The position numbers and the translations under genes are program-made. DNA of 9,664 bases. Source: Bacilli bacterium. GTDB lineage: Bacteria > Bacillota_I > Bacilli_A > RFN20 > CAG-826. Positions 2,694 to 8,629 of this stretch are shown piece by piece. The stretch spans positions 1 through 9,664 of the forward strand of contig JAKSVY010000055.1 of NCBI GenBank assembly GCA_024413875.1. The letters run 5' to 3'. A model generated the notes under the pieces. It saw only the letters and a program-made list of their open reading frames with translations. It was not told the DNA's origin and ran no database searches. Numbering within the stretch: position 1 is the stretch's first letter; each line of letters starts with the position of its first letter.

Positions 2694-3545
2694 ATGAGAA
2701 GCCAAAACTTTGTTGATAACAAACCATTAATCTATTTAGTATCCACTCCAATCGGAAACTTGAGTGAATTTTCACCACGTGCGATTGAAGTTATTTCTGA
2801 TTGTGATTTAATCGCTTGTGAAGATACAAGGAACACAGCAAAGTTATTATCATTCTTTAATATTTCTAAACCACTTGTGTCACTTCGTGAACACAACGAA
2901 GTTAGTGAATCACTTAACATCATTGAACAAATCAATTCAAGAGGAATTAAAGTTGTGTATGTTTCCGATGCTGGTTATCCATGTATTTCTGATCCAGGCG
3001 CTAAGCTTGTTGAACTTGCTTTACAAAACGGAATCAACGTTTCAACAGTAAGTGGTCCTAACGCTGCATTAAATGCTTTGGTTGCATCAGGACTTCCTTG
3101 TGACCATTTCTACTTCCACGGATTCCTTGATCCAAAAAACAAGGTTCAAAAAGATGAACTCAGAAAGTTATCTACTAAAGAAGAAACACTTATTTTCTAT
3201 GAAGCACCTCATAGAATTATGGATACATTAGAAAATATGTATGAAATTCTTGGTGATAGAAAAGCTTGCTTAGCAAGAGAATTAACTAAGAAGTTTGAAG
3301 AATTTATTAGATTATCTCTTAGTGAAATGGTTCAACTTGATCCAAACACTTTAAAAGGTGAAATGGTTGTTATTGTTGAAGGTAAAACAAAAGAAGATAA
3401 TCCAACATTAACGGATGAGGAAATTATCAAAATGGTTAATGATGTAATTGCAACTGGAGTGTCAACAAAAGACGCAATTAAAAAAGTTGCTGAGATTACA
3501 AACATCAACAAAAACACTGTATATAAAATTTATCATGTAAATTAA
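2694..3545 (+). CDS. rsmI: 16S rRNA 2'-O-ribose C1402 methyltransferase RsmI
   Basis: RsmI uses S-adenosylmethionine to methylate the ribose of C1402 in the 16S rRNA decoding centre. At 283 aa it has normal family length. Motifs in order: LIYLVSTPIGNL (12-23), IACEDTRNT (40-48), LREHNE (64-69), VYVSDAGYPCISDPG (88-102), VSGPNAALNALVASG (119-133) and FYEAPHRI (168-175), all diagnostic of the tetrapyrrole-methylase-like RsmI/YraL fold. The C-terminal TGVSTKDAIKKVAEITNINKNTVYKIY is the small HTH-like tail of the family. The ATG is 2 nt after the ricT stop with only a weak purine stretch (AGAAG), so translational coupling is likely. In Bacillus yabA lies between ricT and rsmI; it is absent here. 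The stop overlaps the start of the following terminator stem. Confidence 0.96.
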   Translation: MRSQNFVDNKPLIYLVSTPIGNLSEFSPRAIEVISDCDLIACEDTRNTAKLLSFFNISKPLVSLREHNEVSESLNIIEQINSRGIKVVYVSDAGYPCISDPGAKLVELALQNGINVSTVSGPNAALNALVASGLPCDHFYFHGFLDPKNKVQKDELRKLSTKEETLIFYEAPHRIMDTLENMYEILGDRKACLARELTKKFEEFIRLSLSEMVQLDPNTLKGEMVVIVEGKTKEDNPTLTDEEIIKMVNDVIATGVSTKDAIKKVAEITNINKNTVYKIYHVN

Positions 3546-4264
3546 ACAGCATTAACTTGCTGTTTTTTCTTATTTATTAACCAATAGATAAGTATGTATA
3601 GTGAGCAAGCTGCTGATGATTCAACCCATAACATATACCAAGAAGTAAAAAATGGTAAATCACTTAAAATTGGATTACGAATATTCATCGCGTCAGGGAA
3701 TTTGAAAGCATATATTTCAATAACACCAACAAGCATCATGATTCCATAACCAACAACAAAAACCGGAATCTTCTTAAAAGAAGGTGTTATATATCCTTTT
3801 AAGAAGATAATTAAAACAATCCATACATCAATAGAGTGATGTAACAATCCAGTAATATTTACAATATGGTAGGCTGGAAACGTTGATAAATAGTCTGGAT
3901 AGATAGTAGAAATTAATCCACCCATAAACGCCATAAAGCAAACAAAATGTAAAACAATATTATTCTTTTTTCCAAACAAAACCGCTAAAGATAAAACAAA
4001 ACCAGCAAATGAACAAAAACTATATGGAAACATCATATACATTTTCATTCCTTCAAAGTTGTGGTTAACCTTGAAGATTGTACCAAAAATAACATTGATA
4101 GTTACCGCAAGAAGCAAAGCGCCGCCGCTTATTTTTAACACAAGATTAAATGATTTATCATTAGTTTTCTTATATACAAAATAGCCTCCTAAAATATATC
4201 CGGTAAAGGCAATTAATAAAAATATAATGTGATATAAGCAAAATGGTTCAGATTTCATCCACAT
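3542..4264 (-). CDS. YwaF/TMEM164-like polytopic membrane protein (paralog A)
   Basis: Starting at the ATG at 4264 (MWMKSEPF), this is a ~240-residue protein of about six to seven hydrophobic segments. It aligns by eye with paralog B: PFCLYHIIFLLIAF versus IFGLKHLIIVAVCI at the N-terminus, FPYSFCSF versus LPFHLCSI, GGLISTIY versus GGIAAIFI, a shared His in LLHHSI versus FGYHVGI, and NPILSDLPF versus NPPMDGLPF. The likely family is YwaF/TIGR02206/TMEM164-like. Cys84 and His143 are 59 residues apart, near the 60 of paralog B. Human TMEM164 is, as I recall, an ether-phospholipid acyltransferase with a conserved Cys and His; transfer of that activity is inference. The start is uncertain: no SD precedes this ATG, and the frame stays open upstream through a hydrophobic stretch to beyond the tetR stop. 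It lies 64 nt downstream of tetR, probably in one transcript. Confidence 0.72.
   Translation of the reverse strand: MWMKSEPFCLYHIIFLLIAFTGYILGGYFVYKKTNDKSFNLVLKISGGALLLAVTINVIFGTIFKVNHNFEGMKMYMMFPYSFCSFAGFVLSLAVLFGKKNNIVLHFVCFMAFMGGLISTIYPDYLSTFPAYHIVNITGLLHHSIDVWIVLIIFLKGYITPSFKKIPVFVVGYGIMMLVGVIEIYAFKFPDAMNIRNPILSDLPFFTSWYMLWVESSAACSLYILIYWLINKKKQQVNAV
3544..3569. terminator. Bidirectional intrinsic terminator between rsmI and the - strand membrane gene
   Basis: AAACAGCA (3544-3551) pairs perfectly with TGCTGTTT (3558-3565) around the 6-nt loop TTAACT, followed by a T run to 3568. On the - strand the same hairpin is followed by TTTAATTT, a weaker T tract. The genes are convergent, and the stem encodes the last codons of the - strand ORF (QVNAV), so both stop codons lie in or beside the hairpin. 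Confidence 0.8.
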
Positions 4265-4328: not shown

Positions 4329-4871
4329 TTATTTTTGTTCCGATTTTCTGATTTCGTTATATAAAATTGTGGCAATCTCTTCAGTGTCACAATTGCTTTT
4401 CTTTTCAACCCAGCCAAAAACAATAGCGAGAACTCCCGAATTACGATACATAACTTCGATTCTTTTTGTTGGATCAGTGATGTTATATCTTTTGATTTCG
4501 TATTCACTTTGAGCATTTGTAATTGCAGCTTTAAATCTATTAGATTCATTTGATTTAATAAATCTCATTAAAACTTCATTACCCGCAATGTTTTTCATGT
4601 ATTTGGCAACATAATCTGGGCCAGTAGTATTTTCAATATAATAACTATCATATAAAACATCATTGACCTTTGAGATTGCGTCAATTTGGTCATAAATAAT
4701 ATCTTCAATTAACGAATCTATATATGAATAATACTCGTAAAAAGTAGAACGATTAATTTGGCATTTCTTGCATATTTCTGAAACATTAATATCCAAAGGG
4801 CTCTTAGTCATGAGCAAAGATATATAGCAATTTTTTATCTTGGTTTTTGTTCTTTCTCTTTTATTATTCAT
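4329..4871 (-). CDS. TetR-family transcriptional regulator
   Basis: A 180-residue DNA-binding regulator. The start at 4871 (MNNKRERTKTKIKN) is preferred over an in-frame ATG at 4973: it gives the standard TetR N-terminus, has a G-run (4881-4885) 9 nt upstream that can act as SD, and lies downstream of the predicted promoter. The HTH is DINVSEICKKCQINRSTFYEYYSYIDSLIEDI (~22-53). The rest is helical, and the ending SGVLAIVFGWVEKKSNCDTEEIATIL resembles the TetR_C_7/DhaS-type ligand domain. It is divergent from the alcohol dehydrogenase and upstream of membrane paralog A. The 31-bp element at 4932-4962 overlaps its -35, so autoregulation is likely. A second copy of that element at 6321 suggests that it also controls a downstream transcript. 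The ligand is unknown; an alcohol, aldehyde or lipid would suit the neighbours (inference). Confidence 0.88.
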   Translation of the reverse strand: MNNKRERTKTKIKNCYISLLMTKSPLDINVSEICKKCQINRSTFYEYYSYIDSLIEDIIYDQIDAISKVNDVLYDSYYIENTTGPDYVAKYMKNIAGNEVLMRFIKSNESNRFKAAITNAQSEYEIKRYNITDPTKRIEVMYRNSGVLAIVFGWVEKKSNCDTEEIATILYNEIRKSEQK

Positions 4872-4908: not shown

Positions 4909-4937
4909 ATATTAAAATATTTAATAAAAAATTCCAA
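4909..4937 (-). promoter_or_regulatory. Predicted tetR promoter
   Basis: Read on the - strand: -35 TTGGAA (4937-4932), a 17-nt spacer and -10 TAATAT (4914-4909), with transcription expected near 4902 and a ~30-nt leader to the ATG. Each hexamer matches consensus at 4 of 6 positions and the area is very AT-rich, so the exact -10 is uncertain. The -35 is made of the outer half of the operator-like element, as expected for autorepression. Confidence 0.5.
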
Positions 4938-4962
4938 CACTTGTTGTTTTTTGTTGGTTGAA
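4932..4962 (+). promoter_or_regulatory. Operator-like element, copy 1 (tetR/adh intergenic)
   Basis: The 31-bp element starts TTCCAACAC and ends TTGGTTGAA. Its core CAACA-CT-TGTTG (4935-4946) is a perfect 5-bp dyad; CCAACA (4934-4939) also faces TGTTGG (4952-4957) 12 nt away. It overlaps the -35 of both divergent promoters. A copy differing at 4 of 31 positions (9, 16, 17, 23), without gaps, lies at 6321-6351. Position and duplication make it the best candidate site for the TetR protein. Confidence 0.7.
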
Positions 4963-4986
4963 TCACTATGCATTCAATATTAGTAT
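4958..4986 (+). promoter_or_regulatory. Predicted alcohol dehydrogenase promoter
   Basis: -35 TTGAAT (4958-4963), 17-nt spacer, -10 TAGTAT (4981-4986). Start of transcription is expected at about 4993-4994. The call is supported by the second copy of the region, which keeps the hexamers TTGAAC and TAGTAT at identical spacing (6347-6375) while the spacer between them has drifted. Confidence 0.65.
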
Positions 4987-4993
4987 TTGGAGC

Positions 4994-5010
4994 GGTAGGA
5001 TAAACCTACC
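4994..5010 (+). promoter_or_regulatory. 5'-terminal hairpin of the adh mRNA leader
   Basis: GGTAGG (4994-4999) pairs perfectly with CCTACC (5005-5010) across the loop ATAAA. It begins at the predicted transcription start and ends 5 nt before the strong SD AAGGAGG (5016-5022), which is 9 nt from the ATG. A hairpin right at the 5' end that leaves the SD free is the arrangement of a 5' mRNA-stabilising stem. It shows no riboswitch-like complexity. Confidence 0.6.
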
Positions 5011-5031: not shown

Positions 5032-6249
5032 ATGCAAAGATTTACTTTACCAAGAGATTTATATCACGGTGAAAACGCTTTAGAAGCATTAAAGACTTTT
5101 AAAGGTAAAAGAGCTGTCATTTGTATCGGTGGTTCTTCAATGAAAAAGTTCGGTTTCTTAGATAGAGCTATTAGCTACTTAAAAGAAGCTGGAATGGAAG
5201 TTGCAATTATTGATGGTATTGAACCAGATCCATCAGTAGAAACAGTTATGGCTGGTGCAGCTAAAATGATCGAATTCCAACCAGATTGGATTGTCGCTAT
5301 CGGTGGAGGTTCTCCAATCGATGCTGCAAAGGCAATGTGGATTAAATACGAATACCCACAAACAACATTCGAAGATATGTGCAAAGTCTTCGGATTACCA
5401 ACATTAAGAACAAAAGCAAAATTCTGTGCTGTTTCATCTACATCAGGAACTGCTACAGAAGTTACTGCATTCTCAATCATTACTGATTACAAGAAAGGTA
5501 TCAAATACCCTATCGCTGACTTCGAAATTACTCCAGATGTCGCTATTGTTGATCCAGCACTCGCTCACACAATGCCACATAAGTTAGTTGCACACACAGG
5601 TATGGATGCTATCACACACGCAGTTGAAGCTTATGTTTCTACATGTAACTGTGATTACACAGACCCATTAGCACTTCACGCTATCAAGATGATTAAGAGA
5701 GATTTAGTCAACTCTTATAATGACGATATGGCTGCAAGAGATGCAATGCACGATGCTCAATGTTTAGCAGGTATGGCATTCTCAAATGCATTACTCGGTA
5801 TTGTTCACTCAATGGCTCACAAGACTGGTGCTGCATTCGCTGATTATGGCGCACACATCATTCATGGTGCTGCTAACGCTATGTATTTACCAAAGGTTAT
5901 CGCTTTCAATGCTAAAGATGAAACAGCAAAGAAGAGATATGGTCAAATTGCTGACTTTATCGGTTTAGGCGGTAACAACGATGATGAAAAGGTTGCATTA
6001 TTAATCAAGATGTTACGTGATATGAATGATGCATTAAATATTCCACACTGTATCAAGAATTATGGCGCTGATTCATATCCATGTGAAAATGGTTTTGTTC
6101 CAGAAGAAGTTTATTTAGCACGCCGTCACGACATTGCTGTCAACGCTATTGCTGATGCATGTACTGGTTCAAACCCACGTCAACCTTCAGTTGAAGAAAT
6201 GGAAAAACTCTTAGATTGTGTTTATTACGATCTTGATGTTAACTTCTAA
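5032..6249 (+). CDS. Iron-containing (group III) alcohol dehydrogenase
   Basis: A 405-residue soluble enzyme of the Fe-ADH family, interconverting primary alcohols and aldehydes with NAD(P)H. The N-terminal Rossmann-like half has AVICIGGSSMKKFG (28-41) and WIVAIGGGSPIDAAK (86-100), the GGGS nucleotide-binding loop. SSTSGTATEVT (135-145) follows. Predicted metal ligands are D192 and H196 (HTGMDAITHAVEAY), H259 (IVHSMAHKTGA) and H278 (HGAANA), all present. The end, ACTGSNPRQPS, resembles the ADH half of AdhE and butanol dehydrogenases; the AdhE aldehyde-dehydrogenase half is absent. SD AAGGAGG is excellent. Codon use differs from the neighbours, with many C-ending codons (CAC, GCT/GCA, ATC, TTC), which suggests high expression. 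It is monocistronic with its own terminator and is divergent from tetR. The true substrate and the NAD/NADP preference cannot be read from the sequence. Confidence 0.93.
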   Translation: MQRFTLPRDLYHGENALEALKTFKGKRAVICIGGSSMKKFGFLDRAISYLKEAGMEVAIIDGIEPDPSVETVMAGAAKMIEFQPDWIVAIGGGSPIDAAKAMWIKYEYPQTTFEDMCKVFGLPTLRTKAKFCAVSSTSGTATEVTAFSIITDYKKGIKYPIADFEITPDVAIVDPALAHTMPHKLVAHTGMDAITHAVEAYVSTCNCDYTDPLALHAIKMIKRDLVNSYNDDMAARDAMHDAQCLAGMAFSNALLGIVHSMAHKTGAAFADYGAHIIHGAANAMYLPKVIAFNAKDETAKKRYGQIADFIGLGGNNDDEKVALLIKMLRDMNDALNIPHCIKNYGADSYPCENGFVPEEVYLARRHDIAVNAIADACTGSNPRQPSVEEMEKLLDCVYYDLDVNF

Positions 6250-6272: not shown

Positions 6273-6307
6273 AAGTAGGGACATAATATTTGCTCCCTAC
6301 TTTTTTA
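6273..6307 (+). terminator. Intrinsic terminator of the alcohol dehydrogenase gene
   Basis: AAGTAGGGA (6273-6281) pairs perfectly over 9 bp with TCCCTACTT (6294-6302) around a 12-nt loop, followed by T residues to 6306. It starts 23 nt after the stop. It isolates the dehydrogenase from the promoter copy that begins at 6321. Confidence 0.9.
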
Positions 6308-6320
6308 GTAAAAACTTATT

Positions 6321-6351
6321 TTCCAACATTTGTTGCATTTTGATGGTTGAA
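6321..6351 (+). promoter_or_regulatory. Operator-like element, copy 2
   Basis: It has 27/31 identity, ungapped, with the element at 4932-4962, including the CAACA-TT-TGTTG dyad (6324-6335) and the closing TGGTTGAA. It lies 14 nt after the adh terminator, where no protein gene follows on the + strand. Confidence 0.7.
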
Positions 6352-6375
6352 CGCGTTTTTAAACAATAATAGTAT
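6347..6375 (+). promoter_or_regulatory. Predicted promoter of a non-coding transcript
   Basis: -35 TTGAAC (6347-6352), 17-nt spacer, -10 TAGTAT (6370-6375). This matches the adh promoter in hexamers, spacing and position relative to the operator. Over 64 ungapped positions (4932-4995 versus 6321-6384) I count 46 identities, concentrated in the operator and the -10 area. A GG follows the -10 at the same distance in both copies. Confidence 0.6.
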
Positions 6376-6382
6376 GTTGATA

Positions 6383-6587
6383 GGTTTTAATCATTTCGAT
6401 TATTGAACCAAATTACAGAATATAATTACCTCCCAATTTGGAATCTTGATTCACTTTATATTCCTGTAATTCTATGTTCCAAACCAAGTTACGTAGATCG
6501 TAATGTGTAAATTATTGACCTCCAATCAATTGATAGGAACAAAATAAAAAGTAGGCTCATCCCTATTCTCCATGACCTACTTTTTCT
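6383..6587 (+). ncRNA. Putative TetR-controlled C-rich small RNA (novel)
   Basis: The predicted transcript is ~205 nt, from the GG 7 nt after the -10 to the T run of the terminator at 6546-6590. Structures seen: (1) a 5' hairpin, GGTTTTAATCAT (6383-6394) with ATTATTGAACC (6399-6409), one C-U mismatch and one bulged U, capped by UUCG; (2) a long arm AATTACAGAATATA (6411-6424) with TATATTCCTGTAATT (6457-6471), 14 bp with one bulge, enclosing a loop that contains ACCTCCC (6428-6434); (3) TTACG (6489-6493) with CGTAA (6499-6503); (4) a second GACCTCC (6517-6523); (5) a terminator loop CCCTATTCTCC (6561-6571). The C-rich segments could pair with Shine-Dalgarno sequences. Only tiny ORFs without SD occur (MLIGFNHFDY, MFQTKLRRS, a 14-codon one), so coding is unlikely. 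Gram-positive sRNAs such as RsaE and LhrC use similar C-rich motifs; homology to them is not claimed. Confidence 0.55.
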
Positions 6588-6590
6588 TTT
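6546..6590. terminator. Strong bidirectional terminator (small RNA and membrane paralog B)
   Basis: AAAAAGTAGG (6546-6555) pairs with CCTACTTTTT (6576-6585). After one bulged C, TCAT (6557-6560) pairs with ATGA (6572-6575), leaving an 11-nt C-rich loop. T-rich tracts follow on both strands. It sits directly after the paralog B stop on the - strand and closes the putative small RNA on the + strand. Confidence 0.88.
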
Positions 6591-7384
6591 TATTCTTTTA
6601 CTTCCGGCTTCTTTTTTAAACCTTTGAAGAATTGAATGATTGGATAAATATAACAAAGTGTTGCTGCAAATAAACAAAGCAATGAATAATGTGCGATATA
6701 AACACCCCATCCATATTTCTTTGTTAAGAATGGAAGCCCATCCATCGGTGGATTTACAACATACATAAAGTTAATGTCGTGAACATAATCTGCTAAGGCA
6801 GAGTTAATGTAGATTGCGATAAATAATGTCGCGACCAACATAATTAAGCAGTTGCGGTAATCTTTAATATCGAATTTAACTTCCTTACTAACAAGTAAAT
6901 AGATTGCAAATGTTGCAATACCAACATGGTAACCAAAATATTGTAAAGAAAGGATCCATAAACCATTAAGTGAAGATGATGTTGCGATAAATATCGCTGC
7001 AATACCTCCAATTAAACATGTTGGAAGCATAAAGCTTAAGATAAGTTTTCTAAGTTTTTCATTCTTAGATAGATTTAAAATGATAATAAAGATAATTTGA
7101 ATTGAGCAAAGATGGAATGGTAAATCTGTTTTTGGTAAGTACCCAGAATAAGTTGTGTCACCATGGATACTATCAACAATGCTGTGTTCATTAGTGATAA
7201 TGTAGTAGATAACCTTAATAGATTCTGAAACAATACCAACAATTAATAAAATTCTAAGCATTGTGTTTAATTTGAGTTTTCTTCCAAAGATAACACCTAA
7301 CACGATTGCAATGATACACACTGCAACAATAATTAAATGTTTTAACCCAAATATAGAGTGGCTTGAATAAAATATTGGATTCAT
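6590..7384 (-). CDS. YwaF/TMEM164-like polytopic membrane protein (paralog B)
   Basis: A 264-residue integral membrane protein. The start at 7384 (MNPIFYSS) is chosen because AAGGAG lies 5 nt upstream (7395-7390 region); the ATG at 7402 precedes that SD. About seven hydrophobic segments are visible (~14-34, 42-62, 92-104, 114-134, 143-165, 178-196, 227-253), with a basic C-terminus GLKKKPEVKE. YwaF/TIGR02206 features: GLKHLIIV near the N-terminus, LPFHLC (88-93), His153 in YFGYHVGI, and INFMYVVNPP (204-213). The family includes human TMEM164, which I recall being reported as a phospholipid acyltransferase using a Cys and a His; here C93 and H153 are the candidates, by analogy only. It lies 42 nt downstream of the LexA/LuxR-type regulator on the same strand and ends at a strong terminator, so the two probably share a transcript. 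Confidence 0.8.
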   Translation of the reverse strand: MNPIFYSSHSIFGLKHLIIVAVCIIAIVLGVIFGRKLKLNTMLRILLIVGIVSESIKVIYYIITNEHSIVDSIHGDTTYSGYLPKTDLPFHLCSIQIIFIIILNLSKNEKLRKLILSFMLPTCLIGGIAAIFIATSSSLNGLWILSLQYFGYHVGIATFAIYLLVSKEVKFDIKDYRNCLIMLVATLFIAIYINSALADYVHDINFMYVVNPPMDGLPFLTKKYGWGVYIAHYSLLCLFAATLCYIYPIIQFFKGLKKKPEVKE

Positions 7385-7426: not shown

Positions 7427-8629
7427 TTATAAGAATTGCTTAATAGCTTCTTTCAATTCCTTACGGCCCGATACTCCAAGTTTTAAATATATTGAACTTA
7501 GATAATATTTAACGGTTTCTGGTGAAAGGTATAACTTATCAGCAATTTCTTTATTTGAGTAATTCATGTGAATAAAGTTGATAATTTCAACTTCACGGAA
7601 TGTAAAGTGTTTATTTGGATTATCACCCACTAATGCTTGATGGATTTTGTTATATCCACTTGCTAAATGTTCGATTAAGTTATCAATTCTTTCAACAAGT
7701 GTCTCATCGTATTCATCTAAAATTGGGCACATTACGCTTCCTAAGGTCTTTCTTACTTCCGCTAAAGGAATTAACCATCCGTGTCTAACACAAGTCTTAA
7801 TTGCCCCGTTTAAATGCACATCTAAGAATTCATCATTACCAGCATAGTGATACGCGATTGCAAGATATAAATCTAAGTAAACTTGAACAACATCAATATG
7901 TTGAACATAGGCAAATGAACAAATAGGTTCAAGCATATGAAGGGCTTTCATTTGATTAGTGTTAATAGCCCTAGACACAAAAAGTAATGTCGCTAAAGGG
8001 AATGCTTCATTTCTAACTTTATAAAACCTTCCATCATCAATCCACTTAGGGCAGTTATCTTCTTTAGCCTTAAGAATTGATGTAAAGAAATATGTAATGA
8101 GTTCTTTTTCTTTAACTTCAGAAATGTTCTTAGTTTGATAAGCAAGTAATGTTTTAAAGAAATCTTTCCAATATTCAATATGCCCTGTACAAATAGATGA
8201 CCAGCATAATGTAAGCTTCGCTCCAAACATAATGCTTAAGTCATTACTATCTTTAAGTAATTCCTTGCTCATTTCTTGAGCGAGCTCATAATTACCTTTT
8301 AAATAGTTATCTTGGGCAGATAATAATTTCTTCTCTTCATCATTTAAAAGGTCTTCATGATTACTTGCGTCACACATAATTAAGAAAGGGTAATCAAAAC
8401 GACGTGTACGTTCTTCTTTTTGGCTTGTTAATTTAATGTGTTTAAATCCATCATCAACAAGGATTCCTCTTTCTTTTAATTTATTAATATCTGCACTTAC
8501 CAAAGAAAGAGATGAGTAATCTAAATTCTCTTTAATTTCTCTATATGTTGGGCACTCTCCGTGGAGCGCAAAATAATCTTTAATGTAGTTAGCTGTGTTA
8601 TTAATTCTTGTTTCGTTAATCTTTTTCAT
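7427..8629 (-). CDS. Two-headed regulator: LexA-type winged helix plus LuxR-type HTH
   Basis: A 400-residue cytosolic protein with no membrane segment. Residues ~5-66 (TANYIKDYFALHGECPTYRE..., ending KERGILVDD) match the LexA DNA-binding winged helix, with the hallmark G-x-x-P-T-x-R-E-I. Residues ~95-330 are helical and TPR-like (NYLKGNYELAQEMSKELL, VYLDLYLAIAYHYAGNDEFL), resembling the C-terminal scaffold of MalT/LAL regulators but with no P-loop ATPase. Residues ~341-397 are a LuxR HTH: FTFREVEIINFIHMNYSNKE, then IADKLYLSPETVKYYLSSIY, then KLGVSGRKEL. There is no LexA Ser/Lys protease domain, so it is not LexA. The gene lies 61 nt downstream of the phosphoesterase and 42 nt upstream of membrane paralog B, which it may control. 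No SD precedes the ATG; a TATAAT lies 7 nt before it. Signal and targets are unknown. Confidence 0.85.
   Translation of the reverse strand: MKKINETRINNTANYIKDYFALHGECPTYREIKENLDYSSLSLVSADINKLKERGILVDDGFKHIKLTSQKEERTRRFDYPFLIMCDASNHEDLLNDEEKKLLSAQDNYLKGNYELAQEMSKELLKDSNDLSIMFGAKLTLCWSSICTGHIEYWKDFFKTLLAYQTKNISEVKEKELITYFFTSILKAKEDNCPKWIDDGRFYKVRNEAFPLATLLFVSRAINTNQMKALHMLEPICSFAYVQHIDVVQVYLDLYLAIAYHYAGNDEFLDVHLNGAIKTCVRHGWLIPLAEVRKTLGSVMCPILDEYDETLVERIDNLIEHLASGYNKIHQALVGDNPNKHFTFREVEIINFIHMNYSNKEIADKLYLSPETVKYYLSSIYLKLGVSGRKELKEAIKQFL

Follow-up and report, generated by a model that had tools for sequence, protein, structure and literature searches.

A candidate regulatory RNA within a predicted DhaS-like fermentation regulon of an uncultured Bacilli bacterium

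The window analysed here, a whole stretch of 9,664 nucleotides from a low-GC Bacilli bacterium, carries on its + strand, between the gene for an iron-containing alcohol dehydrogenase (adh, + strand) and a convergent membrane protein gene (tm2, – strand), a predicted RNA unit whose operator, promoter and terminator are well supported at the sequence level. The best overall explanation, to which we assign a probability of roughly 0.4, is that a DhaS-like regulon includes a candidate regulatory RNA of about 205 nt acting via ACCUCC. In the proposed mechanism, a DhaS-like TetR-family regulator would bind CCRACANNTGTTGG and a third TGTTGG half-site, and would control a small fermentation regulon consisting probably of its own gene, the adjacent adh and the separate non-coding transcript, which is expected to begin near 6383 and to stop at the terminator in 6546–6585. 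Bound upstream of and against a weak –35 element, the regulator would more likely activate than block transcription. The two partly exposed ACCUCC segments of the RNA, if they act at all, would probably cover ribosome binding sites, and turning on reductant disposal might in this way also lower other mRNAs.

The 5' part of the window holds holB, psp1 and rsmI on the + strand; the PSP1-domain protein has a long Asn-rich tail (2300–2690) in which N, R, Q and P residues are frequent. They are followed on the – strand by tm1 (3542–4264, start uncertain), a TMEM164-type membrane gene, and by tetR (4329–4871), encoding a DhaS-like TetR-type regulator of 180 aa recognized by protein-family and PDB matches; being co-oriented, tm1 and tetR possibly form one operon. 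The protein search and the duplex tests with tm1 began at 4330 and not at the start codon, which probably lies at about 4264. Divergent from tetR, adh (5032–6249, + strand) encodes a protein resembling the C-terminal part of bifunctional AdhE. Its predicted mRNA leader, as read from the sequence, opens with the hairpin GGTAGG-ATAAA-CCTACC (4994–5010) just 5' of the Shine-Dalgarno sequence, and a terminator stem read in the same way (AAGTAGGGA/TCCCTACTT, 6273–6302, + strand) parts adh from the RNA unit. The convergent tm2 (6590–7384, – strand), also of TMEM164 type, ends at the terminator of the RNA unit, so that TMEM164-type (acyltransferase-related) integral membrane genes lie on both flanks of the tetR–adh–RNA cluster. 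Beyond tm2 lie, also on the – strand, a gene for a LuxR-type regulator (7427–8629, 400 aa), in which a C-terminal HTH of LuxR type is the sole Pfam hit with E of 1e-3 or better, and then a metallophosphatase gene (met).

The evidence for the RNA unit starts from its upstream region. The predicted operator (6323–6346, + strand) consists of the palindrome CCAACA-TT-TGTTGC, of the CCRACANNTGTTGG type, and a third half-site TGATGG, and it directly abuts the –35 element of the RNA promoter (6347–6375, + strand; –35 TTGAAC, 17 bp, –10 TAGTAT). A second copy of the operator (4934–4957, + strand) occupies the divergent tetR–adh intergenic region and is followed by the adh promoter (4958–4986, + strand; TTGAAT-N17-TAGTAT). 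The resemblance to the adh promoter region reported in the preliminary description is borne out, as 6323–6375 and 4934–4986 agree at 39 of 53 positions, against 28 of 53 for the runner-up when both strands of the window are scanned. Common to both sites is CCAACA-n-TTGTTG-N6-G[AT]TGG followed directly by TTGAA[CT]-N17-TAGTAT, and exact matches to each shared part occur within the window only at these two places. When mismatches are allowed, the parts taken singly give 4 matches versus 1.5 expected, 15 versus 12.3 and 5 versus 5.4, which is near chance, so that the evidence lies in their combination. The hexamers by our own count agree with the consensus at 8 of 12 positions, and because of this weakness the promoter was missed by a generic promoter scan; the evidence for it is the shared operator plus the spacing. 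Since adh is flanked by two operators, 1389 bp apart, 6323–6346 could also be mainly a DNA site, serving for looping with the 4934 site or for titration from it, with the RNA as a by-product; this appears improbable, the site being accompanied by a promoter in adh-like spacing, an element superfluous for a site that only binds the regulator.

The predicted non-coding transcript (6383–6587, + strand, about 205 nt) is taken to start 7–8 nt past the –10 element and ends at an intrinsic terminator (6546–6585, + strand) with the stem AAAAAGTAGG/CCTACTTTTT and a loop containing CCCTATTCTCC. The terminator fold (6541–6590) has a z-score of –5.7, matched by 0 of 300 shuffles, in agreement with the earlier claim of a strong terminator; a simple terminator scan missed this hairpin because its loop of 11 exceeds the limit of 8 set in the scan. 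The hairpin is usable on the – strand as well, for the convergent tm2, and may serve tm2 alone. The fold of the whole 205 nt is also better than chance (z –3.7, 0 of 200 shuffles as good, or –4.1, 0 of 300), an excess owed mostly to the terminator: with the latter removed, 6383–6540 gives z –1.71, barely above chance, and 21 of 300 shuffles fold equally well. As background, 242 sliding stretches of 158 nt from the window have a mean z of –0.83 (sd 1.16), a value of –2.7 or below being reached by at least 14. Among the individual elements, the 5' hairpin (6383–6409, + strand) has z –2.3 (8 of 300 shuffles as good) and the long-range stem (6411–6471, + strand), whose large loop contains ACCTCCC, has z –2.2 (11 of 300). 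Domain three of the RNA is ordinary, at z –0.5 (75 of 300). The structure given in the preliminary description is thus weaker than claimed there, the hairpins themselves being modest, and the UUCG loop ascribed to the 5' hairpin has to be abandoned: the fold predicts AUUUC as the loop and places the G of UUCG in a base pair.

The coding potential of the unit is low, as had been claimed. On the + strand, 6383–6587 has a single frame, of 35 codons with a TTG start (6403–6510), and on the – strand there are frames of 24 codons (6413–6487) and 73 codons (6489–6710), the latter overlapping tm2 in a different frame. A six-frame search for protein similarity against 196 loci and the masked window gave none, with a best E of 0.45. 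That the RNA unit encodes a very small protein, for which the 35-codon frame would be the candidate, is thus a distant alternative, given that no Shine-Dalgarno sequence can be read ahead of the TTG and that six-frame similarity to the fetched loci is absent. At the level of sequence the unit combines what marks a small RNA (sRNA), namely its own promoter and terminator (the latter common to tm2) and no coding frame, and a non-coding transcript from 6383 is likely.

The three C-rich segments noticed earlier are all present on the + strand. ACCTCCC (6428–6434) and GACCTCC (6517–6523), both similar to anti-Shine-Dalgarno sequences, have mean unpaired probabilities of 0.66 and 0.72, respectively, and CCCTATTCTCC (6561–6571) lies fully open in the terminator loop. 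In 3000 shuffles of the 205 nt (the motif having been picked post hoc), ACCTCC occurs on average 0.076 times, so that its two copies correspond to a P of 0.0017, compared with 0.027 for the two copies of CCTCC and 0.037 for the three of CTCC. Duplex formation was assessed with nine stretches of the window as start regions, those of tm1 and met at uncertain starts, against 200 shuffled RNAs: the duplex energy was equalled by 4 of 200 shuffles for the LuxR-type gene, by 25 of 200 for adh and by 66 to 175 of 200 for the other seven. The LuxR stretch has no GGAGG-like sequence, and one low value among nine tests is weak. Longer duplexes, computed with no shuffle control and not counted as evidence, were best for adh (–26.1 kcal/mol), tetR (–24.8 kcal/mol) and psp1 (–23.6 kcal/mol). 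The proposal that the RNA pairs with ribosome binding sites is based on its two ACCTCC motifs, the nine stretches showing no clear target preference, and a translation-controlling sRNA is possible.

Relatives of the RNA were sought in several ways. No Rfam family reached its gathering score in the window, and RsaE was absent even among the five weak matches (E 0.19 to 6.4), which belong to snoRNA, microRNA and viral families and were judged to be due to chance. In 279 genomes of one bacterial order, blastn found no homolog of the RNA beyond short matches; at E up to 0.1 these occur in 113 of the 279, the best (E 3.3e-5) across 34 query bases. Among the 30 loci returned, 26 were viewed as alignments only and four (L111, L113, L116 and L135) were examined for frames; in all four the match falls within an ORF, for which reason they were rejected as homologs and the blastn matches are taken as chance. 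A single-sequence covariance model detected no relative in the same 279 genomes, its best score being 20.5 bits versus 200 for the RNA itself; the four genomes with a match at E up to 0.1 were dismissed without inspecting the loci. By both methods the RNA went undetected in a genome (G003) in which the regulator is present, and likewise in the nearest genome reached (G001; blastn best E 0.09, covariance model none). The tm2 protein was also tried as a guide to the RNA unit and given up: genome G239 encodes a protein 64% identical to it, but another gene comes next there. That genome has six matches to the tm2 protein, some of which are fragments at contig ends.

These negative searches favour a further reading, in which the operator and promoter are those of a decayed or lost gene of the regulon and the transcript, running up to the terminator of tm2, has no function. 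The near-chance fold once the terminator is removed and the position of the terminator right behind the convergent tm2 fit this as well. Against it, the operator has stayed intact together with both promoter hexamers and their 17-bp spacing, six-frame similarity to proteins is absent from the 196 loci and the masked window, and ACCTCC is present twice; we regard such a remnant as unlikely, while giving it more weight than any of the alternatives described so far. The preferred reading of a regulatory RNA would make it a lineage-restricted sRNA candidate within a fermentation regulon.

Eight proteins of the collection searched match the regulator with E of 0.001 or below; relatives P0001–P0006 among them span identities of 99 to 59%, a single one reaching 99%. 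Its best named family is TIGR02366 (DhaS), with E 2e-6 and 27.9 bits, far below the curated cut-off of 129. In the PDB, where 12 distinct sequences match, the first is 3kkc, a TetR-family entry with no specific name, and the second is DhaS (2iu5, E 9e-7). We take DhaS, going by the family and entry names, to be a TetR-family activator of dihydroxyacetone kinase. Pfam gives no domain at 1e-3: TetR_C_8 stays below its cut-off (E 0.0055, 17.2 bits versus 26.1), and TetR_N is detected in two of the seven members of the regulator alignment. Since the Pfam TetR models are below cut-off, the TetR-type assignment is based on TIGR02366 and the PDB matches. DhaS is thus the nearest named family, from which the regulator differs both in a score far under the cut-off and in its linkage here to genes for an alcohol dehydrogenase, a hydrogenase and a short-chain-type (SDR) oxidoreductase.

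Whether the operator belongs to this regulator was addressed by comparison across genomes. Among the 279 genomes, which represent the order of G001, a profile built from seven regulator sequences gave five matches in four genomes at E up to 1e-15: G003 contributes two, and G143, G165 and G140 contribute a single match apiece. In a class-wide sample of 395 genomes there was none at E up to 1e-25. No relative of the regulator was found among viral contigs, seven of which contain the operator pattern. The pattern CCRACANNTGTTGNNNNNNGWTGGTT, with up to one mismatch, has eight matches in seven of the 279 genomes. Three of these are exact, two in G003 and one in G143, which are the genomes holding the three best TetR matches of the 279, and the reversed control has 0 of 279. 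Two exact matches sit just outside a frame matched as TetR homolog, at distances of 11 bases (G143, C109) and 12 bases (G003, C106), and the third, in G003, lies 6.7 kb from the tetR ortholog, before NuoE-like, NuoF-like and hydrogenase genes. The hydrogenase is a group A6 NADH-dependent [FeFe] enzyme (NF040763, 829 bits, cut-off 765). The same genome has a TetR paralog (L147 4325–4855) and, divergently oriented to it, a gene for an SDR oxidoreductase (L147 3368–4267), whose promoter reads GTTGG-TTGTAG-N17-TATGAT, with the spacing of operator, –35, 17 bp and –10 as in the window. The tetR site of G003 keeps the palindrome and lacks the third half-site, and its hydrogenase promoter has no good hexamers at that spacing. 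The adh of G003 adjoins a Rex-like gene, named so by reading of the sequence, and is outside the control of this operator.

The pattern for the loose searches was drawn up after the G003 hydrogenase site was known, and the order-wide pattern after the sites of the G003 paralog and of G143 were known, so that the matches are not independent of the patterns and the counts represent support and no blind test. That the exact matches stay confined to G003 and G143, where the best TetR matches lie, was not built into the pattern. Over 28 kb of G003, patterns derived from the window gave, with up to two mismatches, 24 matches, mostly meaningless, among them CCGACACTTGTTGG upstream of the tetR ortholog and CCGACACTTGTTGCATTATGTTGG upstream of another operon. 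With up to three mismatches, forward and reversed patterns gave 14 versus 10 matches in G003, 12 versus 8 in G004, 20 versus 4 in G001, 14 versus 2 in G239 and 7 versus 4 in G002, and the last three genomes have no regulator match despite their loose operator matches; the reversed pattern being a poor yardstick at this level, only sites with zero or one mismatch were used. Two further G003 sites with 2–3 mismatches (L161 and L166) were rejected as operators, as both fall within ORFs. G001 is a draft metagenome-assembled genome (L001, Bacillales bacterium SUG1798; RsmI 80% and adh 90% identity), in which adh has neighbours different from those in the window, no operator is seen by eye upstream of adh or found genome-wide at up to one mismatch, and the regulator is absent at E up to 1e-15. 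There, adh is followed by a short frame of about 44 residues (L001 5500–5660), by eye similar to a single-span membrane peptide and with no visible likeness to the RNA unit of the window. The operator of the window is thus common to sites beside homologs of the regulator, and the control of the RNA unit by the adjacent TetR-type regulator, proposed in the preliminary description, is well supported by the G003 and G143 comparison, the binding itself being a prediction.

TetR-family members are mostly repressors, and the preliminary description assumed that a ligand releases the regulator from the DNA. In this classical scheme, which concerns the direction of control only and is compatible with the other readings, the ligand would induce the dehydrogenase and the RNA jointly. 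It is favoured by the third half-site touching the –35 and by the weak match (E 5.7e-4) that the G003 ortholog has to FabR, a repressor, whereas the nearest named family, DhaS, is an activator, and the weak hexamers stand downstream of the operator, whose end coincides with the start of the –35 at three promoters (adh, RNA and G003 SDR) in constant spacing. We judge repression plausible, at somewhat under even odds. Because the regulator is DhaS-like and its operator abuts the –35, the odds of activation are no lower than those of repression, and release of a repressor by ligand is no better supported than activation; on balance we lean towards activation.

Orphan sRNA candidates are common. 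The firmer result is an operator for a DhaS-like regulator family, linked to an alcohol dehydrogenase, an [FeFe] hydrogenase and an oxidoreductase. Should the RNA be produced, it would join RoxS as a further and independent sRNA wired into a regulon for the disposal of fermentation reductant, in a host group known here solely from metagenome-assembled genomes. The fullest version, a new sRNA that does not descend from RoxS, is induced together with adh by a DhaS-like activator and reduces translation from other mRNAs through its repeated ACCUCC, is rather unlikely taken as a whole. If true, it would mean that a fermentation/redox regulon of uncultured gut bacteria has acquired an RNA arm by independent evolution, with an NADH-dependent hydrogenase falling under the activator too in a relative (G003).

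A limited literature search brought up no sRNA described as controlled by a regulator of DhaS type, and two known systems offer themselves for comparison. RoxS/RsaE of Bacillus subtilis and Staphylococcus is similar in being an sRNA under the transcription factor of fermentation genes, and RoxS is reported to have a role in NAD+/NADH balance (PMC5419742); the factor there is Rex, whereas here it would be a DhaS-like TetR regulator, and an Rfam match to RsaE is absent. The streptococcal csRNAs of the CiaR regulon were predicted by the same logic, from a regulator-specific intergenic promoter followed by a terminator, and were partly verified by Northern blots; they have unpaired anti-Shine-Dalgarno segments, as is predicted in part for the RNA described here, and are activated by the response regulator via TTTAAG-N5-TTTAAG (PMC3091779, PMC4507080). 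In addition, 53 of 61 csRNAs contain CAU, a possible anti-start codon (PMC3091779, PMC4507080). The CiaR repeat TTTAAG-N5-TTTAAG is not seen by eye in the promoter region 6311–6383, and the several sibling csRNAs contrast with the single unit predicted here. If functional at all, the RNA unit would resemble RoxS and the csRNAs in its action, but it belongs to neither.
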